A DNA stretch of 39,386 bases from Alphaproteobacteria bacterium. GTDB lineage: Bacteria > Pseudomonadota > Alphaproteobacteria > SMXQ01. This document shows, in pieces, positions 835-31,699 of the stretch (the first letter of the stretch is position 1; each line of letters starts with the position of its first letter). Both the position numbers and the translations under genes were made by a program. The notes under the pieces are model-generated. The model had not been told where the DNA came from. It saw only the letters and a list, made by a program, of their open reading frames with translations, and did no database searches. The DNA lies in assembly GCA_009380075.1 (NCBI GenBank), contig WHSO01000028.1:1-39386 (forward strand), given 5' to 3'.

Positions 835-1320
835 ATGAAATTTCTATCCTTTGAATCAATGGCTTACTTTCTGCTTGCCGGGGCGCTTGCGGCCTGCGCG
901 CCGACCGCGGACCTGAAGGCGACGCAATCCGGCAGCGGCGGCGCGGGAGCCGGCCCCACGCTCGCACAGTTCAACGACATTCCGATCCCGCGTGGCGCGG
1001 CGATGGATCTGGAGCGCAGCCTGATCTTCGGTCCCGGCGACGGCTGGATCGGCCGGCTGGTGTTTACGACCTCTCTCAGCACCCAGGACGCCTTCGAATT
1101 CTACGGCCGCGAGATGCCCGCCTTCGGCTGGCAAGAAGTCACGCGCGTTCGTGCGCGGATCAATATCATGACCTACCTGCGCAGCGCCCGCGCCGCCACG
1201 ATCCAGATCGAGCACAGGACCCTAGGCGGTGCCGAGGTCAACGTCACCGTCTCGCCGCAGGCCCAGCCGGCTCCCGCCGCCAGGGGCGCTCCCGGCGGCG
1301 CCATCGTCCCCGTCCGCTAG
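835..1320 (+). CDS. putative lipoprotein of unknown function
   Basis: The 161-residue product begins with a short hydrophobic segment ending in the lipobox LAAC, with the acylated cysteine at about residue 21, so it should be an envelope lipoprotein. The mature part starts with a Gly/Ala/Ser-rich linker. A compact domain follows (about 45-140) containing a conserved-looking stretch around FEFYGREMPAFGW, then a Pro/Ala-rich tail. I do not recognise a characterised family. ATG at 835 is chosen because the lipoprotein signal starts there; the frame is open further upstream but that part looks non-coding. It is divergent from the rRNA operon and about 105 bases upstream of the MFS genes. Confidence 0.75.
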   Translation: MKFLSFESMAYFLLAGALAACAPTADLKATQSGSGGAGAGPTLAQFNDIPIPRGAAMDLERSLIFGPGDGWIGRLVFTTSLSTQDAFEFYGREMPAFGWQEVTRVRARINIMTYLRSARAATIQIEHRTLGGAEVNVTVSPQAQPAPAARGAPGGAIVPVR

Positions 1321-1426
1321 CCGCGCCGCCCGATGACGGGGCCGGCTTCCGGTGCTACAAGACACCGAAGACCGCACCGCGCGGCAACGGTGGGCGCAAC
1401 AAGCCCAGGGGAACGAACGCCGGGAC

Positions 1427-2647
1427 ATGCCCCAGGAAGACACCTCGAGCGACGCCGCGCGCTACGGCCAGAGCATGCGTATCCTTGCGCTGATCAGCGT
1501 CGGCCACGCCCTGTCCAACTTCTACGTGCTCAGCCTGCCGCCGCTTCTTCCGTTCTTCAAGAACGACTTCGTCGTCTCCTACACCCTTCTCGGTACGATG
1601 CTGAGCCTGCGCACGATCGTATCCGGCACGTTGCAGATGCCGATCGGGTTCCTGGCCGACCGCATCGGCGGCAAGCGCGTGCTGATCGGCGGCCTGATGC
1701 TGATGTCGCTCGGATTCGGTGGCCTCGCCTTCGCGCCTAGTATCTGGTGGTGCATGCCCCTGATGGCGTTGTTCGGCCTCGGCCTCGCCACAGTGCGGCC
1801 GTCCAACTACACGGTGATCAATGCCTCGATCCCGCCGACGTGGATCGGGCGCGCCTTCGGCATCAACATGTTCGCAGGCCACGCCGGGCGGGCGATTGCA
1901 CCGCCGATCATCATCGCCCTGTCAGCCTTGTGGGGCTGGCGGGTCGCGGTCCTCGTCGCCGCCGGCATCGGTATCGCCATTTCGGTCGGCATCATCAGCC
2001 AGTGGCGCATCGTCAGGGACGACGCCACCGGCAAGCGCAAGGACCCGGGACCCGGCATCGTGGCGGAAGTCCGCATGCTGGCATCCAAAACGGCGTTCCT
2101 GTTCTTTCTCTTCTACACACTGAATTCCCTGTCCAACAATGGCATCAACTCGTTTTCCGTCGCGGCGATGACGGAACTGCACGGCACGCCGCTGGGCGTC
2201 GCGTCGAGCGCGCTGACCGGTTACCTGGTCGCCAGCGCCGTGGGCGTGCTGGCCGGAGGCTTCATCGTCGACAAGACCTCCCGCCATCAGCTCGTCGCCT
2301 CCATCGCGCTGATCGCTGCCGCCGCCCTGATTGCGCTGATCGGCGCGGTGTCGCTGCCGCTGGTGCTCCTCGCAATGGTGATGACCGTGACGGGGATCTT
2401 CCAGGGCATGCTGCGCCCGGCCCGCGACATGATGCTGCGCGCCGTGATGCCGCGGGAAAGCTTCGGCAAGGCGGTTGGCATGGTGACCACCGGCGCCGCC
2501 ATCGGCGGCACGGCGTCGCCCATCGTCTTCGGCTGGATCCTCGACCACGGCGAACCGCAATGGGTCTTCTACATTGTCGGGCTCGGCCTGCTGGCCGTGG
2601 CCGCAACGGTCCTGGCACCGAAGGAAAAGGTCGGCGCTGCCGATTGA
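1427..2647 (+). CDS. MFS transporter (first of a tandem pair)
   Basis: This 406-residue protein has about 12 hydrophobic segments and the MFS loop 2-3 motif GFLADRIGGKR, so it is a major facilitator permease of the inner membrane, probably a proton-coupled organic-anion carrier. The substrate is unknown. A GTG at 1352 also opens the frame. ATG 1427 is preferred because the paralog just downstream begins at the equivalent place (both read about ten polar residues, then YxQSMRIL) and because a purine-rich AGGGGAA lies upstream of it. The next gene starts 55 bases after its stop and is an obvious duplicate. A nearby periplasmic binding protein and catabolic genes suggest carboxylate uptake (inference). 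Confidence 0.9.
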   Translation: MPQEDTSSDAARYGQSMRILALISVGHALSNFYVLSLPPLLPFFKNDFVVSYTLLGTMLSLRTIVSGTLQMPIGFLADRIGGKRVLIGGLMLMSLGFGGLAFAPSIWWCMPLMALFGLGLATVRPSNYTVINASIPPTWIGRAFGINMFAGHAGRAIAPPIIIALSALWGWRVAVLVAAGIGIAISVGIISQWRIVRDDATGKRKDPGPGIVAEVRMLASKTAFLFFLFYTLNSLSNNGINSFSVAAMTELHGTPLGVASSALTGYLVASAVGVLAGGFIVDKTSRHQLVASIALIAAAALIALIGAVSLPLVLLAMVMTVTGIFQGMLRPARDMMLRAVMPRESFGKAVGMVTTGAAIGGTASPIVFGWILDHGEPQWVFYIVGLGLLAVAATVLAPKEKVGAAD

Positions 2648-2702
2648 CCGACCGGCGCCGGGGGAATCCCACCGCCGCGAACCCCTTTTCACCGCACGAG
2701 CG

Positions 2703-3943
2703 ATGACCGACCCCACCGCACAACCGAGCGACAGCGAAACCTACAACCAGAGCATGCGAATCCTCACCCTGGTCTCGGGTGGACACGCGCTCTCCAATTT
2801 TTACATCCTCTGCCTGCCGCCGCTCATTCCGTTGCTAAGGGAGGAATTCGATGCTTCCTATGCCGCCCTCGGCCTGATGTTGTCCGTGCGCTCGGCGGCG
2901 ACGGGATTTTTGCAGTTGCCGATGGGATTCCTGGTCGACCGTTTCGGCGGCAAGGGTGTATTGACCTTCGGACTCATCGCGATGTCGCTGTCCGTCGGAA
3001 TGATTGCCGTGGTCCCCGATTACTGGTGGACGCTCGTGGCCATGGCACTCCTCGGCATCGGTGTCGCCACCATCCGGCCATCGAACTACACCATTCTCAA
3101 CGCATCGATGCCGCCCAATTTCATCGGCCGGTCCTTCGGCATCAACATGTTCGCCGGCCACTCGGGTCGGGTCGCCGCGCCGCCGCTGATCATTTTCGCC
3201 GCGGCGCTGTGGGGATGGCGCGCCGCCGTGATGATCGCCGCCGGCATCGGCCTCCTGACGACCATCGCGATCGTCAGCCAGTGGCGTCACGTGCGCGACG
3301 ATGCGGCGGCACGACGGGAATCGAAGGGCCGGGCTTCATCGCCGAGGTGCGGGTCCTTGCCTCCTACTCGGTATTGATGTTCTTCGTTTTCTACCTGCTC
3401 CAGGCGCTGACGACCAACGGACTGCATTCGTTCGTCGTGGCCGCCCTTGCGGACCTGCACGGGACGCCGCTCGCCGCCGCCTCGACCGCGCTCACCGCTT
3501 ACCTGATCGCCAGCGCCGTGGGCGTGCTCGCGGGTGGATTCCTCGTCGACAAGACGCCCCGCCACGAACTGGTCGCCGTCACGGCCCTCGGCGCGTCCGC
3601 GGCATTGCTGGTGGCGCTGGGTTCGGTATCGCTGCCGATCCTCGCGATCATCGCCTTAATGACGGCCATTGGCATCTTCCAGGGCACCGTGCGTCCGGCG
3701 CGCCACATGCTGCTCCGCAGCATCCTGCCCAGGGATGCCTTCGGCAAGGCCATTTCCATGGTGGCAACGGGGGCCGCCATCGGCGGATTCATCGCGCCGG
3801 TCATGTTCGGCTGGATCATGGACATCGGCGAAGCGCGCTGGCTGTTCTACCTTCTCGCCGCCTGCCTCGTGCTGATCGCGCTGACGGTGCTGGCACCCAA
3901 GCAAAGGATCGTCCTGCCACCGGACGGTGCCAAGCGTTCCTGA
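2703..3943 (+). pseudogene. MFS transporter (second of tandem pair), frameshifted
   Basis: The gene is homologous to its upstream neighbour along its whole length (shared QSMRIL start, GFLVDRFGGK motif, WRHVRDDA loop, TNGLHSF segment). The first part is read in one frame up to about residue 208 and the rest in the -1 frame. The break lies in a run of three G at 3326-3328. Adding one G restores S-K-G-P-G-F-I-A-E-V, which aligns with GPGIVAEV in the paralog. The restored protein would be 413 residues, the normal size. Both halves keep good coding character, so the loss is recent or is a base-calling error in a G run. If real, the product stops in the cytoplasmic loop between the two six-helix halves and should be inactive. 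Confidence 0.85.
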
Positions 3944-4059
3944 CCATCGTTGACTATGCCTCGGCAACGCTTTCGCCGCCCCGCACGGGGGTCTAGAATA
4001 GCAAAATAACCCGCGCGTCGGCCCGGCGCCGGGAGCAAATTTAAGGCAGGGAGTCCGAC

Positions 4060-5346
4060 ATGAAGATTCATCACATCGCCCTTGCGGCCGTCGCCTGTGC
4101 CGCCGCTGCCGTCCCGGGCAGCGCATCGGCCCAATCGGCTGCGGATTTCTACAAGAGCAATCGCCTCACGCTGCTCGTCGGCTATGCGGCGGGCGGCGGC
4201 TACGATACCTATGCCCGCCTCGCGTCGCCCCATTTCGCCCGCAACCTTCCGGGCAGCCCCAGCATTATCGTCCAGAACATGCCCGGTGCCGACAGCCTCA
4301 CGGCGCTCAACCATCTCGCCAACCGCGCCAAGCGCGATGGCAGCGTGATTGCCACCTTCAGCCGCACGCTGGCGATTTCACCGCTGCTCGGCCAGCTCGA
4401 CAAGAGCAAGGCCCAGTACGACCCGCGCACGCTCTACTGGATCGGCAGCTTCAACAACGAAGTGAGCGTCGTTGCCATCTGGGCCGCGAGCGGCATCAAG
4501 ACCATCGACGACCTGAAGTCGCGGGAAGTCCTGGTCGGCGCCACCGGCCTGACCTCCAGCAACGCGGTTTATCCCTATGTGTCGAACAATGTTCTCGGCA
4601 CGAAGTTCAAGGTCATCACCGGCTATCCTGGCACCTCGCACATGACGCTCGCGATGGAACGCGGTGAAATCCACGGCAACGGCGGCTGGTCCCTGTCCAG
4701 CATCTATGCCCAGCACCCGGCCTGGCTGACGGAGAAGAAGCTCAACATCCTGATGCAGCTGTCCACCGCCAAGCATCCGGCCCTGCCGGACGTGCCGCTG
4801 ATCCTGGAGTTCGCGAAGAACGACACCGAGCGCAAGGCGCTCGAACTCGTCTTCGCGCCGCTGGCCATGGGCCGGCCGCTGGCGGCGCCTCCCGGCATCC
4901 CGGAGGATCGCGGCGCGGCCCTGCGTGGGGCCTTCGACAAGACAGTCAAGGACAAGGCGTTCCTCGCCGCCGCCGGGAAGGCCAAACTCGACATCACGCC
5001 GGTCAGCGGCACCGATATCCAGAAACTGGTCGCCAACATGTACGGCGCCTCTTCCGAAGTGATCGAGTTGGCCAAGAAGGTCGTCGAGCGCGGCAGCACG
5101 GCCGTCGGCAAGGCGGTCATCCCGTATGAAAAGGTCTCCGCCAAGATTTCGAAGGTGGAGAAGGGAGGCCGCAAGCTCCGCTTCACCGCCGGCGGCAAGA
5201 AAGGCAATGCCGGCATCAGCGGCAGCAAGACAAAGATCACCATCGGCGGCAAGGCGGCCAAGCGCAGCGCCATCAAGCCGGGCATGACCTGCGAGGTGGA
5301 CTACCAGGGCAGCGGATCGACCGCGCGCACGGTCGCCTGTAACTAA
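4060..5346 (+). CDS. Bug/TctC-type periplasmic binding protein with extra C-terminal domain (copy 1)
   Basis: The 428-residue product has a signal peptide (cleavage likely after ASA, about residue 24). The TctC/Bug fold follows: VGYAAGGGYDTYAR near the start and the anion-binding loop region VQNMPGADS, characteristic of periplasmic receptors of tripartite tricarboxylate transporters. Usual TctC proteins are about 320 residues. This one continues with a ~75-residue C-terminal domain (about 5119-5343) that is Lys/Gly-rich, beta-type and ends with two cysteines (GMTC ... VAC). The Shine-Dalgarno GGGAG precedes ATG 4060, and a -10-like TAGAAT lies at 3994-3999. No TctA or TctB partners are nearby. 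Among the seven copies in this window it is the most diverged of the GYDTYAR subgroup. Confidence 0.88.
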   Translation: MKIHHIALAAVACAAAAVPGSASAQSAADFYKSNRLTLLVGYAAGGGYDTYARLASPHFARNLPGSPSIIVQNMPGADSLTALNHLANRAKRDGSVIATFSRTLAISPLLGQLDKSKAQYDPRTLYWIGSFNNEVSVVAIWAASGIKTIDDLKSREVLVGATGLTSSNAVYPYVSNNVLGTKFKVITGYPGTSHMTLAMERGEIHGNGGWSLSSIYAQHPAWLTEKKLNILMQLSTAKHPALPDVPLILEFAKNDTERKALELVFAPLAMGRPLAAPPGIPEDRGAALRGAFDKTVKDKAFLAAAGKAKLDITPVSGTDIQKLVANMYGASSEVIELAKKVVERGSTAVGKAVIPYEKVSAKISKVEKGGRKLRFTAGGKKGNAGISGSKTKITIGGKAAKRSAIKPGMTCEVDYQGSGSTARTVACN

Positions 5347-20173: not shown

Positions 20174-21409
20174 CTAGTTCTTGCAATCCACCCGTTTGGC
20201 CTCCGCCCCCGGCCGCGGGTAGGTAAAGGTGCAGGTCATCCCCACTTTTATTTCTTTGCGTTTGACCGAATTGCCATTGACGGTCAACGTCGTGCGCGAG
20301 CCGGAAACCTTGGCGCTGACCTCCTTGTCCTCGTGCTTGATGAAGATGGTGCGGCCTTCTTTCTTGATCTGGCTGACCGGACCGACGTGCTGCATCATGT
20401 CCACCTTGACGGTCGACAGGCGCTTGAGCAGCGCGACGACCTCGGACGGCTGGTCCATAAGCTCGACGATCCGCTTCTGCACATCCTCACCGTAGGCGGG
20501 CTCGAGCGACCGGCCGGCCCGTTTCGCCGCGGCGACGAAATCCTTGTCCTCGACCGATTCCTTGAACGCCGTGCGCAACGCCGAAAGGCGATCGGCTGGA
20601 ATGTCCGGCGGTCCCGCGGCGATTCGCGAAAGCTGGCCCATATTGGCGAGCAGCTTCATCACGGCTTTTGCCTGGGGGTTCTTGGCGTAGGCGCGCGCGT
20701 CCTGGATGCCCTTGACACTGCCGCCGACCTGCATGATGACGCGGAGCCGGCCGGCGCGCTGATAGGTAAGCGCCGAATCCTCGCTGCCCATCAGGATGTC
20801 GAGCTCGCCCCTGAGGATGGCCAGCGCGGCTTGGGACCCGGAGTAACCGGTGATGATCTTGTAGGGGAGGCCGAAGGCGGTCCCTACCATGAACGAATCG
20901 GTGTACGACCCCGAACCCACGCCGGAGGCGGAAAATTTCAGTGTCTCCTTGGCATTGAGGATGTCTTCGAAGGTCTTGTACTTCGAGTCCTTGCCCACCG
21001 ACATGGTGCGCGGTTCCGACGCCAGCTTGCCGAGCCACGACATCTTGGCGAGGTCGAAACGGATGCCCTTCTGCTTGAGCACCTGGGAATAGACGAGGCC
21101 GGTGGTAAAATTGCCCATGGTCAGGCCGTTGGGTTGCGCCGTGTAGATCAGGTTGACCCCGATGATATGCCCGGCGCCGGGGCGGTTCTTGACCACGAAC
21201 TTCGAGCCCGGAAGCTTCTTTTCCATGGTATTGGCGAGCAATCGGCCCCAATAATCGTGGCCACCGCCAGGCGCCGTGGTCACGATCCATTCGGCCGTCT
21301 TGCCGTCGAAATAGGCCTTGCCCTTGTCCGCCGCCAAGGCACCGCCTGCGGCTATGGCGAGGCACAAGGCAAACACAACACCAAGCAGGCTACGCGCAAA
21401 TATTCTCAT
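20174..21409 (-). CDS. Bug/TctC-type periplasmic binding protein with extra C-terminal domain (copy 5)
   Basis: The 411-residue product has a signal peptide (cleavage near ALA-AD, about 27). The receptor part differs from copies 1-4: TTAPGGGHDYWGRL replaces GYDxYAR, and NRPGAGHIIGVNLIY replaces the QNMxGAGS region. Copies 5, 6 and 7 thus form a second subgroup with probably different ligands. The C-terminal extra domain is present (VSQIKKEGRTIFIKHEDKEV ... VSGSRTTLTVNG ... GMTCTFTYPRPGAEA ... DC) and keeps the two cysteines. A candidate promoter lies at 21496-21524. There are no membrane transport partners nearby. Confidence 0.88.
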   Translation of the reverse strand: MRIFARSLLGVVFALCLAIAAGGALAADKGKAYFDGKTAEWIVTTAPGGGHDYWGRLLANTMEKKLPGSKFVVKNRPGAGHIIGVNLIYTAQPNGLTMGNFTTGLVYSQVLKQKGIRFDLAKMSWLGKLASEPRTMSVGKDSKYKTFEDILNAKETLKFSASGVGSGSYTDSFMVGTAFGLPYKIITGYSGSQAALAILRGELDILMGSEDSALTYQRAGRLRVIMQVGGSVKGIQDARAYAKNPQAKAVMKLLANMGQLSRIAAGPPDIPADRLSALRTAFKESVEDKDFVAAAKRAGRSLEPAYGEDVQKRIVELMDQPSEVVALLKRLSTVKVDMMQHVGPVSQIKKEGRTIFIKHEDKEVSAKVSGSRTTLTVNGNSVKRKEIKVGMTCTFTYPRPGAEAKRVDCKN

Positions 21410-21495
21410 CCTTGCCCCCCGGTTCTTGTTGCGGGAGCGCCCCGTACAGACTGCATATTATCGTATTCGCGGGATGCTCCCCTGCCGTGACCGGA

Positions 21496-21524
21496 AGGCT
21501 AGCAAGGCGGGGATAGGGGTTCAA
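21496..21524 (-). promoter_or_regulatory. candidate promoter of binding-protein gene copy 5
   Basis: TTGAAC (21524-21519), a 17-base spacer and TAGCCT (21501-21496) on the minus strand, about 80 bases upstream of the start codon. The GGTTGAACCCC wording is shared with the candidate at 19982-20010. Confidence 0.4.
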
Positions 21525-21587
21525 CCAAAGAAGGCAGGCGGGTCCCTTGGACCAGCCCAACTACTTGATATCACAGGAATCTTTTTG

Positions 21588-22820
21588 TTATTGGCAGTCG
21601 ATCTGCTGGGCCTCCGCCCCGGGCCGCGGATAGGTGATGGTGCAGGTCAGGCCCGGCTTGAAGATATCCCTTTTGGCGGTCTTTCCGGCCTGGGTGATCT
21701 TGGTCCGGGACCCGGAAACCTTGGCCGAAACCTCCTGTCCAGCGCGCTGGATGAAGACCTCCCGGCCCTCGTTCTTCACCTGGGTGATGGGGCCGGTGTG
21801 CTTGACCATTTCCTCCTTCATCGACGACAGCTTCTTCAGCATGGCGACGATTTCCGGCGGCTGCGCCATCAGCTCCGTGATCATCTTGTGGACGCCGGCG
21901 CCGTAGGCCGGCTCGGTTTCCCGCTGGGCGCGCTTGGCGGCTTCCTGCAGCTCCTTGCTCTCGATGGCGCCCTTGAACGCGGTACGCAGGGCCTCGAGGC
22001 GGTCCGCCGGAACCTTCGGCGGCCCGGCGGTGATGCGCGACAGGTTGCCCATCAGGGACATCAGACGGATCACCTGCTTGCCCAGCGGCGTCTTGACGTA
22101 ATCGTTGGCATCCGCCATTCCCCGGACGCCGCTGCCGCCGACCATCATGATATTGCGCAAGTGTCCCGCACGGACGTAGGAGTCGGCCGAATCCTCCCCG
22201 CCCATCAGCACGTCCAGTTCGCCGCGTACCATGGCGAGCGCCGCCTGCGAACCGGAATAGCCGTTGATGATCTTGAACGGAATGTTGAAGGCCGTCCCCA
22301 CCATGAAGGAGTCGGTAAAGGAGCCCGACCCGACGCCGGACGACGAAAACTTGACCTCGCGCTTCGAGTTGAGCACGTCGGCGAAGGTCTTGTATTCCGA
22401 CTTGACCGCGACCGACATGACCCGGCGCTCCGACGACACCTTGCCGAGCCACGACATCTTCGCAAGGTCGAAGCGGATGCCCTTGGTCCCGATCAGCTGC
22501 GAGTACACGAGACCGGTCGAAAAGTTGCCCACCGTGAGCCCGTTCGGCGGCGCCGTGTAGACGAGGTTCGCGCCGATGATGTGGCCGGCGCCGGGACGGT
22601 TCTTGACGACGAATTTCGACCCCGGCAACTGGCGTTGCATGTTGATCGCCACCAGCCGTCCCCAGAAGTCGTGGCCGCCGCCGGGCGCGGTGGAGACGAT
22701 CCACTCCACGGTCTTGCCCTTGAAGTAGTCCTTGCCCTTGGCCTGGGCGAAGGCGGGCGACGAGTCATACGCGCATACAAAAACGGCGCCAGCGAGCATG
22801 ACGCGACACAGGTACCGCAT
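21588..22820 (-). CDS. Bug/TctC-type periplasmic binding protein with extra C-terminal domain (copy 6)
   Basis: The 410-residue product is a close paralog of copy 5: STAPGGGHDFWGRL, NRPGAGHIIGANLVY, FDLAKMSWLGK and GSGSFTDSFMVGTAF. The signal peptide ends near AFA-QA (about 30). The extra C-terminal domain reads VKNEGREVFIQRAGQEV ... VSGSRTKITQAG ... GLTCTITYPRPGAEA ... DC. ATG 22820 is chosen because GGGAGG lies 10 bases upstream and the signal peptide begins there; an in-frame start at 22916 would add an unlikely 32-residue lead. It is transcribed on the minus strand like copies 2-5 and lies downstream of the alpha/beta hydrolase. Confidence 0.88.
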   Translation of the reverse strand: MRYLCRVMLAGAVFVCAYDSSPAFAQAKGKDYFKGKTVEWIVSTAPGGGHDFWGRLVAINMQRQLPGSKFVVKNRPGAGHIIGANLVYTAPPNGLTVGNFSTGLVYSQLIGTKGIRFDLAKMSWLGKVSSERRVMSVAVKSEYKTFADVLNSKREVKFSSSGVGSGSFTDSFMVGTAFNIPFKIINGYSGSQAALAMVRGELDVLMGGEDSADSYVRAGHLRNIMMVGGSGVRGMADANDYVKTPLGKQVIRLMSLMGNLSRITAGPPKVPADRLEALRTAFKGAIESKELQEAAKRAQRETEPAYGAGVHKMITELMAQPPEIVAMLKKLSSMKEEMVKHTGPITQVKNEGREVFIQRAGQEVSAKVSGSRTKITQAGKTAKRDIFKPGLTCTITYPRPGAEAQQIDCQ

Positions 22821-22965
22821 CGGATAAACCTCCCAACGAAGGGGCTTGGGGTTTCTTGGTGTTGTTGCGCGGATTTGACCACAAGCCGATGCCCCGCACA
22901 ATGGGACAACGACCACCGGTGCGATGCCGTATCCCCCGTAATCGCAGCCTTTCAGGACTTTACCC

Positions 22966-24216
22966 CTATTTTTTATAGGGAGTTATGTTCGCTTTCCCGG
23001 AGGCGTCGATGTACCACAGTTCCGATTTCATCGGCTTGCCGTTCACGCGGTCGAGCATCCAGTCGAACATCATCGTTTCGCGGTTCTCGCCATTCGCTGC
23101 CGCCGGCCCGCCGTGGATCGAATGGTTGGCGCTTTCGTAGACCACCAGGCGCTTGGGCGCCCGGATCTGCTCGAACAGGCGGTAGGTATGCTCGACCGGC
23201 GACAACTGGTCGTCCTCGCCGGCGACAATCATGTACGGGCATTTCACCCTGGGCGCGACCTTGCGCAGATCGAAGCCCTTGACGAAGGTATCGAATTTTC
23301 GTTCGTCTTCGTAGCCGCACATGAACATGAAGCGCACCTTGAAGGTGGGCGAGGCCATGTTGAAGATCGTGTGCGCGCCCGGCTCCTGGCAGATGCCGGT
23401 GGCGCTCACGCCCTTGATCCGGTTGGCGAGCGCCGCCGCCGCCTGGGTCCCGAAATAGGTGCCGAAGGAGGAGCCGCGGATGACGATGCGCTCGGGATCG
23501 ATCTCCGGCTGGTCGCAGAGCCAGTCGACGCAGGCCACCGCCGCCGCCTGGAACGCCGTCGGGGTGAGGTAGATACCGCGGCCGGGGCACTCGCCCTGCC
23601 CCGGCCCGTCGAGCGCCAGCACGGCAAAACCGCGCTCGATGGCGGGATCGCCGTACATGGCGACCATGTTCTCCTTCGACCCGTCCATGCCGCCCGTCAC
23701 CACCGTCACCGGGAACCGTTCGCTCTTGGCCGGCGGATGCGGCAGATGCAGGTACGCCGGCAGCGACTTGCCCCGACCGAAGGGAATCTCGACCCGCCTG
23801 ACCGGCCGCGGCGCGTATTTCATGTATTTGGCGAAGGTGGCGTTCATGCGTTCCTCGAGCTCGGCCACCGTGTCGTCGAAGTCGAAATAGGGCCACTGGG
23901 CGGAGGCATAGAGCAACGAGGCGGTGATGAACTGCTCGCGCGCCGAAACGAAGCGCTTCTGCTTCTCGAAGGCACGGCCACGCACCTCGGCCCTGCGTCC
24001 GGCGCGGGCGAACTCGGGCCCGATATCGTTGAACTTCTTCATCCGCGCGGCGGCCGCGCGGAACGCGGCGATGCCTTCGGACCCGCCGCGGCTGCCCTTC
24101 GACTGGATGCGCCCCTGGTCCCATTCGGGCCCGACGGTGGCGATGACGGCGTCGAGAATCCACCGCTGCTCCTGCCAGCGCCGGGTGCGGCGCTCGACAT
24201 GCAGGCGTTTCTTCAT
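22966..24216 (-). CDS. alpha/beta hydrolase (FrsA / dihydroxy-pseudo-oxynicotine hydrolase type)
   Basis: This is a 416-residue cytoplasmic enzyme without a signal peptide. An N-terminal helical cap (about 1-140) precedes the hydrolase core. GGMDGSKE (about 175-182) matches the oxyanion-loop motif GGxDxxKE of this subfamily. The nucleophile elbow is RGSSFGTYFG with Ser at about 250. The acid is probably Asp335/336 in AGEDDQ, and the base His365 in SANHSIHG. Related enzymes include 2,6-dihydroxy-pseudo-oxynicotine C-C hydrolase and various esterases or acyl hydrolases. The substrate is unknown. The start ATG has GGGAGGGAA upstream. The stop codon lies inside a short palindrome (CCCTAT / ATAGGG). 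It is divergent from the VOC gene. Confidence 0.88.
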   Translation of the reverse strand: MKKRLHVERRTRRWQEQRWILDAVIATVGPEWDQGRIQSKGSRGGSEGIAAFRAAAARMKKFNDIGPEFARAGRRAEVRGRAFEKQKRFVSAREQFITASLLYASAQWPYFDFDDTVAELEERMNATFAKYMKYAPRPVRRVEIPFGRGKSLPAYLHLPHPPAKSERFPVTVVTGGMDGSKENMVAMYGDPAIERGFAVLALDGPGQGECPGRGIYLTPTAFQAAAVACVDWLCDQPEIDPERIVIRGSSFGTYFGTQAAAALANRIKGVSATGICQEPGAHTIFNMASPTFKVRFMFMCGYEDERKFDTFVKGFDLRKVAPRVKCPYMIVAGEDDQLSPVEHTYRLFEQIRAPKRLVVYESANHSIHGGPAAANGENRETMMFDWMLDRVNGKPMKSELWYIDASGKANITPYKK

Positions 24217-24446
24217 GCGTTCCCTCCCATCGCGGTCCGCCCCGTTCCGCTGTCGTCCGAAGCCCGGCTTGCAGCGGTTTACCCGCTGTTTGGTGACATG
24301 CTAGCCTGACGGCACTCTGGCGAGCGGGCCCGTGCGTGTCAATCGCCCCAGCCCACGGGTAGTGTCTCAGTTTCAACGGGCGGGCCGCCGTTGATCCTTT
24401 GGAGGTCAAACACTACCGTGACCACAGCGTTCTGAGGAGCGGCCTC

Positions 24447-24782
24447 ATGGATAAGATCGCCTACATCGAATTTCCCACGAGCGATGGCGCCGGGACCGGC
24501 AAGTTCTTTTCCGACGCCTTCGGCTGGAAGCTGATCGATTATGGCCCGACCTATACCGGGCTCGATGGAGCGGGGATCGACGGGGGGATCGATGCCGGGG
24601 CTGGTCGGGTCGCGGCACCGCTCGCGGTCATCCGGGCTGAGGACATCGACGATGCCGAAAGGCGGGTGGTGGTGGCGGGTGGAATCGTTACACGCGCCCA
24701 GTTCGACTTTCCGGGCGGACGGCGCTTCCACTTCCGCGAGCCTGGCGGATCGGAATTGGCGGTTTATGCGGAAAAGGACTGA
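24447..24782 (+). CDS. VOC (glyoxalase/bleomycin resistance-like) family protein
   Basis: The 111-residue protein is a single VOC unit. It opens with IAYIEFPTSDGAGTGKFFSDAFGWKL, typical of the first beta-alpha-beta-beta-beta module of glyoxalase-like proteins, and ends with FREPGGSELAVYAE, the usual second-module ending. VOC proteins are small metal-dependent lyases, isomerases, dioxygenases or binding proteins; the specific function is not assignable. ATG 24447 has GAGGAG 8 bases upstream and aligns with the domain start; the longer frame from 24399 is not favoured. A binding-protein gene (copy 7) starts 120 bases downstream on the same strand. Confidence 0.82.
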   Translation: MDKIAYIEFPTSDGAGTGKFFSDAFGWKLIDYGPTYTGLDGAGIDGGIDAGAGRVAAPLAVIRAEDIDDAERRVVVAGGIVTRAQFDFPGGRRFHFREPGGSELAVYAEKD

Positions 24783-24901
24783 GCGTGTCGGGCACGTCGA
24801 ATTTCAAACTGAGGCACTACCAGCCCCCGTACTGTGTGGCCAGCCAGGTCAAACAATTCGCGTCCCCAATGGGTGCACAACCACAGCAGGAAGGCCGAAC
24901 C

Positions 24902-26146
24902 ATGAACTCACACAAGATATCCTTCGTTATTGCCGCGGCCTCGGCCGTGGTCCTCTCGGCGTCGACGGCCCGCGCCGCCGATGACGTGAAATTCTTCGAC
25001 GGCAAGTCCGTCACCTACATCGTCGCCACCGGGGCCGGCGGCGGCTTCGATTTCTACGGGCGGCTGATCTCCCAGTACATGAAGAAGAACCTCCCGGGCT
25101 CGACCTTCGTCGTCCGCAACATGCCGGGCGCCGGCCATATCATCGGCACCAACTACATCTACAATTCGAAGCCCGACGGGCTGACCATCGGCACCTTCAA
25201 CACCGCCATGTTCTTCAACCAGATTCTCAATAAAAAGGGCGTAAAGTACGACCTTGCAAAGATGAACTTCCTCGGCAAGGCATCGTCTTCGCCGCAGATC
25301 GTGATGGTGAACGGCAAGCTTCCGTATAAGTCCATCGCCGAACTCCGCGCGTCGGGCAAGGTGCTGAAGATGGCGACCGGCGGGCCGGGGTCCGGTCGCT
25401 GGGTCTTCGCCAAGATGACCGAAGCGGCCCTCGGCCTGAAGTTCAAGATGATCCCGGGCTACGACGGCCCCGACGCCCATCTCGCCATGCTGCGGGGCGA
25501 GGTCGACGTGATGATGGGCTCCATCGAGAGCAACATCGACTTCCATCGCCAGGGCAAGGGCCGGCTGCTGACGGTCTATTCGACCGAGCGCGATCCCGAC
25601 GCCAAGGATGTTCCCACCGCCTATGAGCTGATCAAGGACGAGGACGGCAAGCAGCTCGCGCGCCTGACCACCCTGTCGGGCGAGATGTGGCGCGTTACCG
25701 GCGCGCCGCCGGGCATTCCGGCGGGCCGCCTCGCCGCCCTGCGCGCCGCCTACAAGAAGGCCCTGCTCGATCCCCAATTGCAGGCCGCGGCCAAGAAGGC
25801 GGGGCGCGAGGTCATGCCGGCTTTCGGCGAGGACGTGGACAAGGCCTTCCGGGAGGCCCTCGGCGTATCGCCCAAGGTGAAGAAGCTGATCATCGAGGCC
25901 AACGCGCCGACCGCCAAGGTGGAGTTCCTCAATCACACCGGCAAGGTGACCAAGAGCGAAGGGGACGGCCGCAAGCTCTTCCTGATGCATGAGGGCAAGG
26001 AAGTCTCGGCCAAGGTTTCGGGCTCCCGCACCAAGGTCAGCATCGCGGGCAAGCCCGGCAATCGCAAGGCGATCACGCCCGGCATGACCTGCACGTTCGT
26101 CTATCTGCGCGCTGGCGCGGAGGCCAAGGAAGTGAACTGCAAGTAG
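24902..26146 (+). CDS. Bug/TctC-type periplasmic binding protein with extra C-terminal domain (copy 7)
   Basis: The 414-residue product has a signal peptide (cleavage near ARA-AD, about 23). The receptor domain shows VATGAGGGFDFYGRL, VRNMPGAGHIIGTNYIY and PGYDGPDAHLAMLRGEVD. The extra domain (GKVTKSEGDGRKLFLMHEGK ... VSGSRTKVSIAG ... GMTCTFVYLRAGAEA ... NC) matches copies 5 and 6 best. ATG 24902 follows AGGAAGG; the upstream in-frame region from 24785 is probably untranslated. It is the only copy of the second subgroup on the plus strand and lies just behind the VOC gene. Confidence 0.88.
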   Translation: MNSHKISFVIAAASAVVLSASTARAADDVKFFDGKSVTYIVATGAGGGFDFYGRLISQYMKKNLPGSTFVVRNMPGAGHIIGTNYIYNSKPDGLTIGTFNTAMFFNQILNKKGVKYDLAKMNFLGKASSSPQIVMVNGKLPYKSIAELRASGKVLKMATGGPGSGRWVFAKMTEAALGLKFKMIPGYDGPDAHLAMLRGEVDVMMGSIESNIDFHRQGKGRLLTVYSTERDPDAKDVPTAYELIKDEDGKQLARLTTLSGEMWRVTGAPPGIPAGRLAALRAAYKKALLDPQLQAAAKKAGREVMPAFGEDVDKAFREALGVSPKVKKLIIEANAPTAKVEFLNHTGKVTKSEGDGRKLFLMHEGKEVSAKVSGSRTKVSIAGKPGNRKAITPGMTCTFVYLRAGAEAKEVNCK

Positions 26147-26196: not shown

Positions 26197-26550
26197 TCAG
26201 GATTTCTCTGCCGGTAATACCTTGAACGAGAAGTGCACACCAGCATCCGCGGCAACTCGCGCAACGTGTTCTAAAAACCTATTGCCCTCACCGCCGGGTT
26301 CGTACTTCGCCAGGATACTGATCTTGACCGGAGTTGTGGGCGCCACTTCCTGACCGGTGGTTTCGCGGAGTTGCTCGTACACTTCACCACTATCAATGAA
26401 GTTGAAATAGCGATTTACCTTCGCTTGTAAAAGCGACAAGTGTTGGATTTCATCCTCCCAGGCGCAATCGTCGACAAGAGTGAGTACTACATATCCAGTA
26501 TCCTTTTCCAGACCAAGATAATCGACAGTATTTGCATCTGTTAGTCGCAT
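26197..26550 (-). CDS. putative RHS immunity protein (DUF6572-like)
   Basis: The product has 117 residues and no signal peptide. It starts MRLTDANTVDYLGLEKDTGY and contains a WEDEIQHLSLLQAKVNRYFNFIDSGEVYE segment. From memory this resembles the DUF6572 family, small acidic proteins often found behind RHS toxins. It is the gene immediately behind the RHS toxin tip. A TTG at 26565 overlaps the RHS stop, but ATG 26550 is preferred: GAGGGAC lies before it and the family-like sequence starts there. The role is inferred to be neutralising the adjacent nuclease-like toxin. GC content is lower than in the housekeeping parts of the window, consistent with an exchangeable toxin-immunity cassette. Confidence 0.7.
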   Translation of the reverse strand: MRLTDANTVDYLGLEKDTGYVVLTLVDDCAWEDEIQHLSLLQAKVNRYFNFIDSGEVYEQLRETTGQEVAPTTPVKISILAKYEPGGEGNRFLEHVARVAADAGVHFSFKVLPAEKS

Positions 26551-26561
26551 AACACTGTCCC

Positions 26562-29500
26562 TCAAGGCCGTCGGATTGTGACTTGGGTTCCCGGCGGGAT
26601 AACCGTTCCACCAGGAATACCAGGTTTTCCTTTGCCCACCACGACACCTCCACTCTGCTGGATCTCGGAAAACGCCGTTGCCTGATTCCGCGTAAGTGGC
26701 GCTGTCGCCGAAGCCTTACACTCCACGCAACCAATCTGCGTTCCATCACGTGTTGCGAAGTCGACGCGAGTGCGTGTGCCACTTGATGTCCTTATTGTTA
26801 CCTGCGGAGCAACAACCTCATGTGTTGCCCGTAGCTCGGCTCCTACAGCCGCCTCAAACGCATCGCCAGAGGCCCTATTTGCCTGCACACCACTCCTTGT
26901 AGCGGAGCCGGCAAAAGCTCTAGTCCCGATTGCGGCACCGGCGCCGACCTGTAACCCCGGGATGGCGGTCATTATACCCGTCAACCCGGCCTGTCCAAAA
27001 TCGATGCAGGAGAAGCTCCCGGACTGCTGATATTGGCTCAGGACGTCGATGGCGGCCCCGAGTCCGAAGAGCGCCAATTGGACGGCGAACTCCCCACTGG
27101 GGTCCACGGCGTTGACCACGTTGCCGCCGACGTAGGGGTATAGATTGGCGACCGGATCGCTCCCCTCCCCGAGCCGATCGCGCGACAGCCAGCGGCCGGC
27201 GACCGGGTCGTAGGCACGGTACTGGGTGAGATAGAGCCCGCTGTCGGCGTCGTGGAACATGCCCGCATAGGTGAAGTCCGTCACCGGCGCGGTGGCCTGC
27301 AGCGGCCGGCCGTAGGGGTCGTAGCCGTAGGCCGGGGCACTCGTCGGGCCGGCGAACGCGCGCCGCACCGTGCCGAGCTGGTCAGGGGCGTAGTAATAGG
27401 GCTGCCCCGGCGAGCCAGGCACGTATTCGCCCTCGGAGTAGTAGGCTCGCGTCACCGCATTCGTGGCGTCCCGCGCCTGGCAGATGCGCGAGCCGCACCA
27501 CAGGTAGGAGATCGTCGTGGCGCCGCCGCCCCCGCCGGGCGTGCTGGTGATCGCTGTGCGCCGGTCGCGCCCGTCATAGACGAAGTCCGTCTGCTTGCCC
27601 GGCGTGGCGGGATAGGTGATCCTGACGAGACGATTCTCGGCGTCCCAGGCGTAGGTGCGGGCGCCGTCGGAGAGCAGGTTGCCGTTGGCGTCCCAGGTCA
27701 GCGCCTGGCCGGAGAGGTTGGTCAACTGGTTGAGGTTGTTGTAGGTGGCGGTCTGCGTCGCCGAAACCGGATAGACCGCCGCGCTGTCGCTGGTTTCGGA
27801 GATCGTGCTGAAGAAATTCTCCGGCGTCGAGGTGAAGGTGAAGTTGGAGAAGTGCCCCGCAACGAGGCCGGTGTTGGCGATGCTGGTTAGACGGCGATCA
27901 TCGGTGTTCGAGAGATAGCCCCAGGTCGTCGCGAGGGTCGAGCTCGTGAGCTGGCGCTGGGTGATCTGCGGCGTCTCCCCGAGATAGGACAGCGTGAAGG
28001 CGCCGAGGTCGCTGCCGTGGCTGGTCAGCCGGCCGATGGCGTCGTAGCCGAAGGTCTCCCCCCCCGAGCCCTGAACCGTGCGCGAGGCCAGGCGGCCGAG
28101 CGCATCGTAGACATGGGTGATCGCGCTGTTGGCAAGCGGGCCGGTTTCCTGCTGAAGCTGCAGCGCCCCGAGGGATCCGATGTGCACGTAGCTGTACTGC
28201 GTGGTGCCGGTCCCGTCCGTCATGGAGACAAGGCGCGGGAAGTACGGATCGAAGGTGAAGGTGACGTTCGGCGTCGTGTTGACCGCATTGAGATAAGTCT
28301 TGCCGGTGAGGCGGTCGTCTTTCGCGTAGCCGTACTCGATCGTCTGGTTCAGCGCGTCGAGCATCGAGTGGAGCCGGCTCGTCGTGCTCTCGTAGGTGTA
28401 GGTGACCGTGCTGCTGTCGGCGTAGGTCTTCTGAATGAGCCGGCCCTGGACGTCGTAGGCCCAGGTCGTGGTGTTCCCGGCCGGATCGGTCAGGCTGGTG
28501 AGCCTGCCGATGCGGTTGTAGCCGAACTGCGTCAGGTTGCCGCGCGGGCCGGTCACCTCCGTCAGGCGCCGATTGGCGTCGTGGACATACCTCCAGGTCC
28601 GGCCGAGGCGGTCGGTGTAGCTGGCGAGGTCGAGCTTGTCGTAGGTGTAAAGTTCCGTCGTCCCGTCGGGATAGGTGGCCTTGGTGATTCGGTCCGCCGC
28701 GTCATAGTCGTAGGTGACCGTCCAGCCTTCCGAGTCGGTATATGTCCTGACCCGCGCGAAAGAATCGTAGGTGAAGTTGGCAGCGGTGTTGCTGTTCGCG
28801 TTGACGATCTCGATGAGATCGCTGTTTGCGTTGTACTGATAGGTGGTCGTCTCCCCAAGCGGATTGGTCACCGACGTAATTTGACCTGCGGCGTTGTAGG
28901 TATAGGTCGTCGTCTTGCCCGCCGCGTCCGTGTATACGATCGGCCGGTGCTGCGTGTTGTAGGTGTATTGCGCGATCGTCTCCTGAAAGCCGTAGGCCGT
29001 CGTCTGGCTGATCGCGGAAAGATCGATCTGGTTGGCGTATGCGAATGACGTCGTTCGCCCCAGCGGATCGACGGTCCTGGTGACCTTGAAGAAGCCTTCC
29101 GTATCGTAGGACGTTTGCCTGAGCTGGGTCGTGCCATCATCCAGCACGCGGCCGGCCGCAATGGGCTTGCCGTAGGTCCCCGTGCGGATTCCGCTGGTCT
29201 GTCCCGGATAATTGAACCAGATGCGGTTCTCCAATGGATACTTGATACTCTCGAGAACAGCCGATTTCTGGTTCGTGTTGCCGGCGTGCAGGAAATGGCT
29301 GATCCGGGCCAGGGAATAATCGCAGCCTCCCGTCGGCGTACATCCGGCCGCGACGTAGGCATCCTTGTCCCAATGAAAGCTGTCGCGGTAGCTCAGGAAC
29401 TGGTTGACCGGCGCAAGCGGCATGCCCGACGGAACGGTGGCGGGCGGATCGCTGGCGGGAATTGGCGCGGGCTCCAGCCATTCTTCTCGTTCGTTGTATC

Positions 29501-31022
29501 CGAGTGGATCGGTGACCTGCACGAAACGGGGCGGCGCGCTCGTCCCCGGCGCCGTGTATGAAAAGGTCGTCGTTCCGTAAGGGGTCGTCAGCGAGTTGAC
29601 AAGCGAGTTGCTGTCATAGGTGAAAATCGAGGTCAGCCCGATCACGTCGGTGATCGCGCTGAGACGGTTAAACGAATCGTAGGTAAACGTCGCGCTGCGT
29701 CCGAACGGATCGGTAATCTTCGTTACGAGCAACGGGCTTGCCGGCAGCCCGTAGGTGAATGTGGTCTGGCGACCGACCGCGTCCGTCAGGGTCGTCAGGC
29801 GTAACTGCCCGTCGTAGTTGAGGGTGAGGACGTTGCCTTGAGGATCGATGACCTGGCTCAGGAAAACTCGTCGCGGGTAGCTCAGGCTGCCGTCGGACTC
29901 CGCATAAATCTCGACACTCCCGTCTCCCATCTGGCGGCGATAGGTGATGGGAGACTGCGACGCGAGAACGAGGATCGAGCCGTCGCTCGCCTGCGTCGCA
30001 AACCGCCCCGTGCTGCTTTGATAGTCCGTGTAATGGTAGGCGCCTCCACCGGCGATGTACCGGGACACGTCCGCGCCTGGATTCGTCGGATCGTCCGTCA
30101 CGTAGGACAGCCAGTTCAGGGTCCATTTGGGGCTGATGTTGAAGAAGCTGAAATTGGCTGGCTGGCTGTCTTCGCGCTGATTATAGGCAATCCTCACCTT
30201 GGCCGACGGCCCGATGGCGGGAGCGTATCCCACCGGCTCGTCGGAAAGGCTCACACTGACCGTCGCTTCGCCGATGTTGTACGTGCACAGCGGACAGTCG
30301 GGATTTTCATCCGCCTGCTGGTCCTGGGGCCCGGCGAGGCCCGGCTCCGTTCCATCCGTCGGTCCCTTGCCCCAGATCGTCCCGGCTTCCTTGGCGTCCA
30401 CCACGCGCCAGCCATCGCCGGCCGGGATGCTGTCGGGCACCAGGAAATAGCCGCTTGCCTCGGCATCGAGCGCCGCCGGCGTCACCCACAGGTCGCCGCC
30501 CACAATCGTGGAGTCCTTGACCTGATAACGTCCGTTGGCCTGACCGACGATGGCGGCAAAATGGCCGACCTTCCAGTGCACGACGGCCGCGGCCGGGACC
30601 GGTTGTCCCGGCTCCCGGAAGATCAGGCGGTACGCGTACTTTGCTTGTTCTGCAAGCTTCCCGAGTTCAGCGAGGTTCGTGCCGTCTTCCCCGGCTCGAT
30701 ACCATTGCAGGAATTCGACCCGTTCCGCGCCAACATTCCGGGAAAGCATCAACGACCGCAGCGCCCGGGGACCGCAGTTGAACAGGTGCCTTGGGTCTTT
30801 CGTTACAAGCGTCAGTATTTCACGCGCCGTCTGCACGGACTCCGTGGCCGACCCGGTAATGGGGCGCTCCCCGATCTCATCGAACAGCGCCGCCAGCTTC
30901 TTGTGCTGGCCGAGGGAGGCCTGAAGCCGGGCAAGTTCACCTACAGCTCTATCGACGAGCGCTCTCGCGGCCGGGTCCGTGGCGCTCTTTCCTTCGCGCC
31001 ATGCCGCCTCCCATGCCTCCAA
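26562..31022 (-). CDS. RHS/YD-repeat polymorphic toxin (main part; start lost to a frameshift)
   Basis: A 1486-residue frame. In order: a TPR-like helical stretch (EAWEAAWREGK...), a C39-peptidase-like region (FNCGPRAL with Cys at about 83; VGHFAAI with His at about 154; VKDS), a region before the RHS shell, then many YD repeats (for example YTYNAAGQITSV). It closes with the RHS core ending (GLYLTQYRAYDPVAGRWLSRD ... NVVNAVDPSG). The last ~180 residues are the variable tip, with a PD-(D/E)XK-like motif VDF...VECK (codons of ECK at 26715-26723). RHS proteins form a cocoon that delivers a C-terminal toxin to other cells. TTG 31022 is not a true start: the preceding fragment at 31051-31380 supplies the N-terminus. 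Confidence 0.9.
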   Translation of the reverse strand: MEAWEAAWREGKSATDPAARALVDRAVGELARLQASLGQHKKLAALFDEIGERPITGSATESVQTAREILTLVTKDPRHLFNCGPRALRSLMLSRNVGAERVEFLQWYRAGEDGTNLAELGKLAEQAKYAYRLIFREPGQPVPAAAVVHWKVGHFAAIVGQANGRYQVKDSTIVGGDLWVTPAALDAEASGYFLVPDSIPAGDGWRVVDAKEAGTIWGKGPTDGTEPGLAGPQDQQADENPDCPLCTYNIGEATVSVSLSDEPVGYAPAIGPSAKVRIAYNQREDSQPANFSFFNISPKWTLNWLSYVTDDPTNPGADVSRYIAGGGAYHYTDYQSSTGRFATQASDGSILVLASQSPITYRRQMGDGSVEIYAESDGSLSYPRRVFLSQVIDPQGNVLTLNYDGQLRLTTLTDAVGRQTTFTYGLPASPLLVTKITDPFGRSATFTYDSFNRLSAITDVIGLTSIFTYDSNSLVNSLTTPYGTTTFSYTAPGTSAPPRFVQVTDPLGYNEREEWLEPAPIPASDPPATVPSGMPLAPVNQFLSYRDSFHWDKDAYVAAGCTPTGGCDYSLARISHFLHAGNTNQKSAVLESIKYPLENRIWFNYPGQTSGIRTGTYGKPIAAGRVLDDGTTQLRQTSYDTEGFFKVTRTVDPLGRTTSFAYANQIDLSAISQTTAYGFQETIAQYTYNTQHRPIVYTDAAGKTTTYTYNAAGQITSVTNPLGETTTYQYNANSDLIEIVNANSNTAANFTYDSFARVRTYTDSEGWTVTYDYDAADRITKATYPDGTTELYTYDKLDLASYTDRLGRTWRYVHDANRRLTEVTGPRGNLTQFGYNRIGRLTSLTDPAGNTTTWAYDVQGRLIQKTYADSSTVTYTYESTTSRLHSMLDALNQTIEYGYAKDDRLTGKTYLNAVNTTPNVTFTFDPYFPRLVSMTDGTGTTQYSYVHIGSLGALQLQQETGPLANSAITHVYDALGRLASRTVQGSGGETFGYDAIGRLTSHGSDLGAFTLSYLGETPQITQRQLTSSTLATTWGYLSNTDDRRLTSIANTGLVAGHFSNFTFTSTPENFFSTISETSDSAAVYPVSATQTATYNNLNQLTNLSGQALTWDANGNLLSDGARTYAWDAENRLVRITYPATPGKQTDFVYDGRDRRTAITSTPGGGGGATTISYLWCGSRICQARDATNAVTRAYYSEGEYVPGSPGQPYYYAPDQLGTVRRAFAGPTSAPAYGYDPYGRPLQATAPVTDFTYAGMFHDADSGLYLTQYRAYDPVAGRWLSRDRLGEGSDPVANLYPYVGGNVVNAVDPSGEFAVQLALFGLGAAIDVLSQYQQSGSFSCIDFGQAGLTGIMTAIPGLQVGAGAAIGTRAFAGSATRSGVQANRASGDAFEAAVGAELRATHEVVAPQVTIRTSSGTRTRVDFATRDGTQIGCVECKASATAPLTRNQATAFSEIQQSGGVVVGKGKPGIPGGTVIPPGTQVTIRRP
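26565..26876 (-). other. variable C-terminal toxin tip of the RHS protein, nuclease-like
   Basis: About 104 residues from RASGDAFEAAVG to the end. The pattern VDF, about 12 residues, ECKAS followed by a helix (LTRNQATAFSEIQ) fits the PD-(D/E)XK nuclease core, with Asp, Glu and Lys in place. I infer a DNase (or RNase) toxin; the exact family is not identified. The 77 residues between the RHS core end and this tip are Gly/Ala-rich and hydrophobic. Confidence 0.65.
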
Positions 31023-31423: not shown

Positions 31424-31699
31424 TTAAGGGGCCGTCCAGGGGAAGCATCCCCAAACGCCCGCGCCCCAATAAGGGGTTTCCGCGGCGGTGCTGATCGTAT
31501 TGGATTGCGACGTCCTGTTGCCGTTCGCGTCGTATGCGTAGGCGACGCACAGGCCATTGTCGTAAAGCGCTGTCCTGACGCGGCCGAGTTCGTCATACGT
31601 GTAGGACACGGATGCCGACATGCTTTCGGAAATCAAAAGAAACAGCGCCAAGGTTGACGCGGCGAGGAACTTCGCTCTCTTTGCGGTTGTAATAGGCAT
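31424..31699 (-). CDS. small secreted YD-repeat protein
   Basis: This 91-residue protein has a signal peptide (core FLAASTLALFLLI, cleavage near SMSA-SV). The mature part is a pair of YD/RHS-type repeats (YTYDELGRVRTALYDNG and YAYDANGNRTSQS), followed by a short aromatic tail ending WGAGVWGCFPWTAP. It has no toxin domain. It lies 43 bases upstream of the RHS gene in the same direction, so the two are likely co-transcribed. ATG 31699 is taken as the start because the signal peptide begins there. It may assist folding or closure of the RHS shell, or be a remnant of an ancestral larger gene; neither is demonstrated. Confidence 0.75.
   Translation of the reverse strand: MPITTAKRAKFLAASTLALFLLISESMSASVSYTYDELGRVRTALYDNGLCVAYAYDANGNRTSQSNTISTAAETPYWGAGVWGCFPWTAP

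Follow-up and report, generated by a model that had tools for sequence, protein, structure and literature searches.

A predicted PD-(D/E)XK nuclease tip and a DUF6572 gene form a putative toxin-immunity cassette on an RHS protein from an alphaproteobacterial genome

Organization of the RHS locus

The window, i.e., the whole 39,386-nucleotide stretch of DNA analyzed here (contig WHSO01000028.1 of assembly GCA_009380075.1, Alphaproteobacteria bacterium), carries on its reverse strand an open reading frame (ORF) for an RHS polymorphic toxin and, directly downstream, a small gene of the DUF6572 family. The features of the locus are as follows.

31424..31699 (-), gene for a small secreted RHS-repeat peptide, 91 aa, upstream of the RHS gene
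31380-31051 (-), N-terminal part of the RHS gene including the signal peptide, 109 aa, in a different frame from the RHS ORF
26562..31022 (-), RHS polymorphic toxin ORF, 1486 aa, recognized by Pfam, NCBIfam and relatives
27104-27087 (-), end of the RHS core, DPSGEF, a variant of the autocleavage motif PxxxxDPxGL
26877..27086 (-), pre-toxin linker, 70 residues (RHS residues 1313-1382), hydrophobic and Gly/Ala-rich
26876-26565 (-), C-terminal toxin tip, 104 aa (RHS residues 1383-1486), predicted PD-(D/E)XK nuclease
26548..26564 (-), translational junction: RHS stop TGA, overlapping GAGGGA ribosome-binding site and DUF6572 ATG
26550-26197 (-), DUF6572 gene, 117 aa, ATG start, predicted immunity protein of the tip

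The RHS ORF runs from an N-terminal peptidase C39-like segment (Pfam Peptidase_C39, a weak match at 0.045) through RHS/YD repeats (RHS_repeat, 3e-66) and an RHS-associated core (NCBIfam TIGR03696, 2.6e-18) to the variable tip, which is the layout of RHS polymorphic toxins as seen with Pfam, NCBIfam and carrier relatives. All RHS repeats over threshold in the genome fall within this one gene (26562-31022). The core ends in NVVNAVDPSGEF, which keeps DPxG and differs at the P and L positions of PxxxxDPxGL, the motif defined at the core end of RHS proteins (PMC8765631). Conservation between carriers is absent from the linker that follows.

The 109-aa upstream piece aligns with residues 1 to ~100-113 of intact RHS relatives (41-54% identity), in which the gene is continuous and a signal-peptide-like segment starts ~110-123 residues before the position of the window ORF start. 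An apparent frameshift, either a true break or a draft assembly error, thus separates the two ORFs, and because of it the RHS protein may lack export here; neither tip nor immunity gene is affected. The toxin gene might then be decayed at this locus, with the RHS protein silenced by the frameshift and the immunity gene alone being of consequence, against kin. The different frames of the signal-peptide and RHS ORFs, set against their continuous relatives, and a comparable remnant in Pantoea (L013, see below) would fit such decay, but the remainder of the 1486-codon frame is intact, as are tip and immunity gene, and a single assembly error is possible in a draft genome of 162 contigs. We regard decay as a serious possibility, albeit a minority one.

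Small RHS-repeat genes are annotated at the same upstream place in Methylosinus and Rhizobium plasmids. Three genes for TctC-type substrate-binding receptors lie near the RHS locus, on both strands (window 20177-26143). As for delivery, the type VI secretion system (T6SS) sheath protein VipA had no match in this 97% complete genome, with a positive E. coli control, and the T6SS route was therefore set aside; a Pfam scan of the RHS ORF returned no PAAR domain, only the weak C39 match, and thus not the features of a T6SS RHS effector. The N-terminal domain of the RHS protein was found in 0 of 60 relatives of the source genome, which suggests that the RHS gene was probably acquired.

The tip is predicted to adopt a PD-(D/E)XK nuclease fold

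The first-pass annotation of this sequence had placed a PD-(D/E)XK-like nuclease in the last ~104 residues of the RHS protein, with VDF, 12 residues, ECKAS and then a helix. The tip delimited here has exactly that length, and both motifs are in place (VDF at residues 1420-1422 and ECKAS at 1434-1438), although the gap between them is 11 residues, with 13 from D1421 to E1434. The helix also reappears, at tip residues 63-75 of an AlphaFold2 model, and the proposed fold is supported by the invariant residues, the modeled core and the structural matches described below.

Candidate active-site residues of the tip are E1390 (GxxxE), D1421, E1434-C-K1436 and Q1447. Counted from the start of the tip, D39, E52, K54 and Q65 are invariant in 14 sequences, and E8 is conserved except for one D. 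The model built from 14 sequences (mean pLDDT 95.8, pTM 0.86) comprises H2-18, E21-29, E35-44, E47-53, H63-75, E77-79 and E99-102, i.e., the alpha-beta-beta-beta-alpha-beta core of the PD-(D/E)XK fold. D39 sits on the second strand, E52 closes the third, K54 comes right behind it and Q65 is on the second helix; D and ExK are hence carried by adjacent central strands, E by helix 1 and Q by helix 2, as in PD-(D/E)XK enzymes. In the 31,055 aa of window ORFs of at least 100 aa, a loose D-x(n)-ExK pattern appears only twice, and we judge the tip motif to be well beyond chance by its conservation across relatives and the predicted fold.

Structural comparison with VIA-align gave VRR_NUC as the best match (Z 8.9 over 80 residues, 2.4 A), together with TnsA (7.0), FAN1 (6.8), Hjc (6.2), AF1548 and DrdV. 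Nearly all matches are PD-(D/E)XK nucleases, and tRNA splicing endonuclease chains are included. Since Foldseek alone returned no structure under 0.001, we base the fold claim on three lines taken together, namely the model, the residues of the active site and the agreement among the matches. At the sequence level, neither Pfam nor NCBIfam holds a family that names the tip; at E 10, the curated Pfam toxin models matched 0 of 5 tip members and the Pfam VRR_NUC model did not match the tip. At a relaxed threshold, the weak Pfam matches of the five members were mostly to PD-(D/E)XK families (HSDR_N, NERD, NucS_C, DUF4143, MmcB and Card1), PADLOC CARF-PDDEXK models matched at 0.002, and the tip matched phrog_34091 at 3e-15, a PHROGs family listed as of unknown function. 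The sole match in a PDB sequence search, an endoglucanase, was dismissed as chance. Collectively, these data support the assignment of the tip to the PD-(D/E)XK domains, as a predicted nuclease of likewise predicted toxicity.

The most likely substrate of such an enzyme would be DNA, because the nearest folds act on DNA. The tip could also be an RNA-cutting PD-(D/E)XK enzyme, directed for example against tRNA, with DUF6572 still acting as its immunity protein. Several CDI toxins of related fold are tRNases, the fold includes RNases, and the structural matches contain chains of tRNA splicing endonucleases, but the best of these matches are the DNA-processing VRR_NUC, TnsA, FAN1, Hjc and DrdV. 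The fold does not fix the substrate; RNA cleavage appears to be the less likely alternative.

The downstream gene encodes an acidic DUF6572 protein

The product of the downstream gene is acidic (pI 4.7) and matches PF20212, a family of unknown function in Pfam, over positions 1-104 of 106, with 89.6 bits (E 2e-25; curated cut-off, 27 bits). Eleven bases separate the RHS stop from the DUF6572 ATG, and the ribosome-binding site overlaps the stop (TGAGGGACAGTGTTATG). The initial description of a 117-residue, DUF6572-like next gene, with its Shine-Dalgarno inside the RHS stop region, thus holds in both respects. The protein matches phrog_36231 at 8e-13, also listed in PHROGs as of unknown function. 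Its model is a mixed alpha-beta fold (pLDDT 89.3), for which the best structural matches (Z 7.3) mix STAS-like, CdiA-CT and restriction-enzyme chains and lie within the stated background of the tool; we therefore make no claim on its fold class.

DUF6572 accompanies the tip on four kinds of carriers

Relatives of the tip were taken from plasmids, genomes and IMG/VR contigs, and pairing was assessed by a stop-to-stop search of all loci. The scan of genome contigs used narrow patterns and gave four loci, so that the census relies heavily on IMG/VR and is incomplete. Part of it was retrieved using DUF6572 as query, and the loci found by the tip alone show the same pairing. In the close family, all tips complete to the C-terminus (13 representatives below 90% identity) have DUF6572 behind them, at most 33 nt away as measured between domain ends. 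The close family thereby displays, across independent loci, the adjacency expected of cognate immunity.

The carriers that present the tip with DUF6572 are of four types, as listed below.

RHS carriers: window, L018, L090
CdiA-type carriers (hemagglutinin-repeat; Cronobacter, Cedecea, Burkholderiales): L008, L019, L020, L025
Pyocin_S carriers (S-pyocin-like): L074, L081 and others
Phage head-linked carriers, encoded in phage head modules: L073, L077, L089

The departures from complete pairing are instructive. A tip cut short (L021) has no DUF6572 partner, a Pantoea locus (L013) retains DUF6572 intact but only 27 residues from the end of the tip, and the distant tips of L003 and L016 precede genes other than DUF6572. 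Prophage contigs also contain relatives of both tip and DUF6572. When a pyocin-type tip was used to query the INPHARED phage collection, no match was obtained, although such a tip does occur in IMG/VR contigs.

The identity matrices of tip and DUF6572 correlate over 13 non-redundant pairs (Mantel r 0.70, p 5e-5; shared ancestry not removed), which we therefore take as supporting evidence only. In 75 of 78 comparisons, DUF6572 diverges faster than the tip. The DUF6572 partners are without exception acidic (pI 4.3-5.4) and most tips are basic, although those of L025, L073 and L089 are acidic.

Some prophage contigs (L089 at 1092-5045, L073, L075, L077, L101 and L102) hold a protein family encoded between head-maturation-protease-like and capsid-like genes. 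In L089, two neighboring members are 80% identical over 178 N-terminal residues, but their C-termini, nuclease-like by motif in both cases, are unrelated. These proteins appear to constitute a head-linked polymorphic toxin family that lacks a Pfam match and is apparently distinct from MuF toxins.

Tip and DUF6572 move as one cassette

DNA similarity between the window and L018, a locus in the metagenome-assembled genome of a distant gammaproteobacterium, is confined to one block (window 26887-26207, 73% identity) that begins at the tip and stops within the last DUF6572 codons; the two RHS carriers share ~30% protein identity. Tip and DUF6572 have thus been transferred as one cassette between very different delivery proteins. 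G+C content is 0.58 in the tip and 0.49 in DUF6572, compared with 0.64 in the RHS core.

Conversely, the window carrier shares 58-63% identity with RHS proteins from plasmids of Hartmannibacter, Methylosinus and Rhizobium up to residue ~1310-1329, and beyond this point their tips and next genes are unrelated to those of the window. Judged by sequence comparison, one carrier with swapped tips and swapped next genes is the defining pattern of polymorphic toxins. The toxin-immunity order initially read from this locus is therefore in agreement with adjacency over four carrier types, cassette transfer, swapped tips and correlated divergence, and the interpretation of tip and DUF6572 as a toxin-immunity pair, with neutralization as its predicted outcome, is well supported by these genomic comparisons.

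DUF6572 outside the cassette

The association runs in one direction: the tip implies DUF6572 and not the reverse, because DUF6572 is found in the absence of the tip as well. Of five DUF6572-positive genomes in an even sample of the phylum, four lack the tip. One genus (L004 and L051-L072) has DUF6572 in 23 of 24 genomes as a stand-alone gene beside a rhodanese-like gene and without a toxin. This near-universal copy is an apparent core gene with a possible housekeeping or domesticated role. DUF6572 is also found within immunity arrays behind other toxins. In L006, L017 and L029-L050, from many genomes of one genus in the family of genome G249, a conserved membrane-protein gene is followed by a longer DUF6572 of ~170-225 residues, again without a toxin.

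The published functional work on DUF6572 that we found concerns Streptococcus suis, in which it forms the C-terminal part of immunity proteins to a toxin group dominated by NADases, and where the domain is reported to be dispensable for neutralization and to recruit effectors to the type VII secretion system (T7SS) ATPase (PMC12558993). By analogy, the protein of the window could be a companion of the tip, such as a secretion adaptor or chaperone, and not its neutralizer; the streptococcal region was unneeded against an NADase toxin and bound EssC (PMC12558993), and DUF6572 does exist without the tip, but its position directly after one toxin fold on four unrelated carriers, none of a T7SS substrate type, its strong acidity, covariation with the tip and faster divergence, and the separate N-terminal immunity domain of the streptococcal protein make a mere companion improbable. 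The genomic pattern instead points to a stand-alone immunity role for DUF6572 in Gram-negative bacteria.

Relationship to known toxin systems

Systems of this kind are known, and the toxin family is unnamed. The VRR-Nuc T6SS toxins of Salmonella bongori (TseV/TsiV, PMC9635880) similarly place a C-terminal PD-(D/E)XK nuclease with an alpha1-beta1-3-alpha2-beta4 core before a small immunity gene. However, the TseV carrier is PAAR-like and T6SS-linked, whereas here an RHS carrier is associated with a signal-peptide ORF and the sheath gene is absent; TsiV-type immunity belongs to DUF3396 and not to DUF6572, and the tip is unmatched by Pfam VRR_NUC, which leaves the pair outside the TseV/TsiV group.

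Tox-REase families 1-10 (Zhang et al. 2012, PMC3482391) are likewise restriction-endonuclease-fold tips with E/D/ExK/Q motifs, carried by RHS, CdiA and other proteins. Unlike them, the five tip members matched none of the toxin models held in Pfam at E 10, a comparison that covers the families with a Pfam model, and the immunity families shown in that work do not include DUF6572 by name (PMC3482391). PF20212 also includes the EIC-CR domain of S. suis T7SS immunity proteins, which likewise occurs at toxin loci. In S. suis, however, it is appended to the C-terminus of other immunity domains and has a reported secretion role (PMC12558993), whereas DUF6572 of the window is encoded by a gene of its own, downstream of one nuclease family on Gram-negative carriers. 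The literature searched contained no mention of a pairing between this tip family and DUF6572.

Discussion

Our analysis depicts the end of this RHS gene as a cassette of a PD-(D/E)XK nuclease toxin and DUF6572 immunity borne by an RHS protein, a reading to which we assign a probability of about 0.85. The carrier would be exported by the Sec route, as suggested by the signal peptide on the upstream ORF. By analogy with RHS proteins of known structure, the RHS shell would enclose the C-terminal domain, and self-cleavage at the core end would free the tip. In a neighboring cell, the tip is expected from its fold and conservation to act as a metal-dependent nuclease, with D1421, E1434 and K1436 as putative catalytic residues and E1390 and Q1447 as presumed helpers. 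DUF6572, translated right behind, may bind the basic tip and cover its active site or nucleic-acid surface, which would protect the producer and its kin.

On a broader scale, DUF6572 might ancestrally be the dedicated immunity of one unnamed PD-(D/E)XK toxin family whose two-gene cassette passes among RHS and CdiA-type proteins, S-pyocin-like bacteriocins and phage head modules, and both the streptococcal adaptor and the toxin-free core copies would then represent later reuse of an old immunity fold; we propose this history tentatively, at somewhat less than even odds.

The immunity reading conflicts with the sole published functional claim that we found, namely, that the DUF6572 domain is unnecessary for neutralization. 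The occurrence of the pair on four kinds of carriers, phage head modules included, indicates that such cassettes are freely shared. Finally, our findings provide a testable function for DUF6572/phrog_36231 and for phrog_34091, linked as one toxin-immunity cassette.
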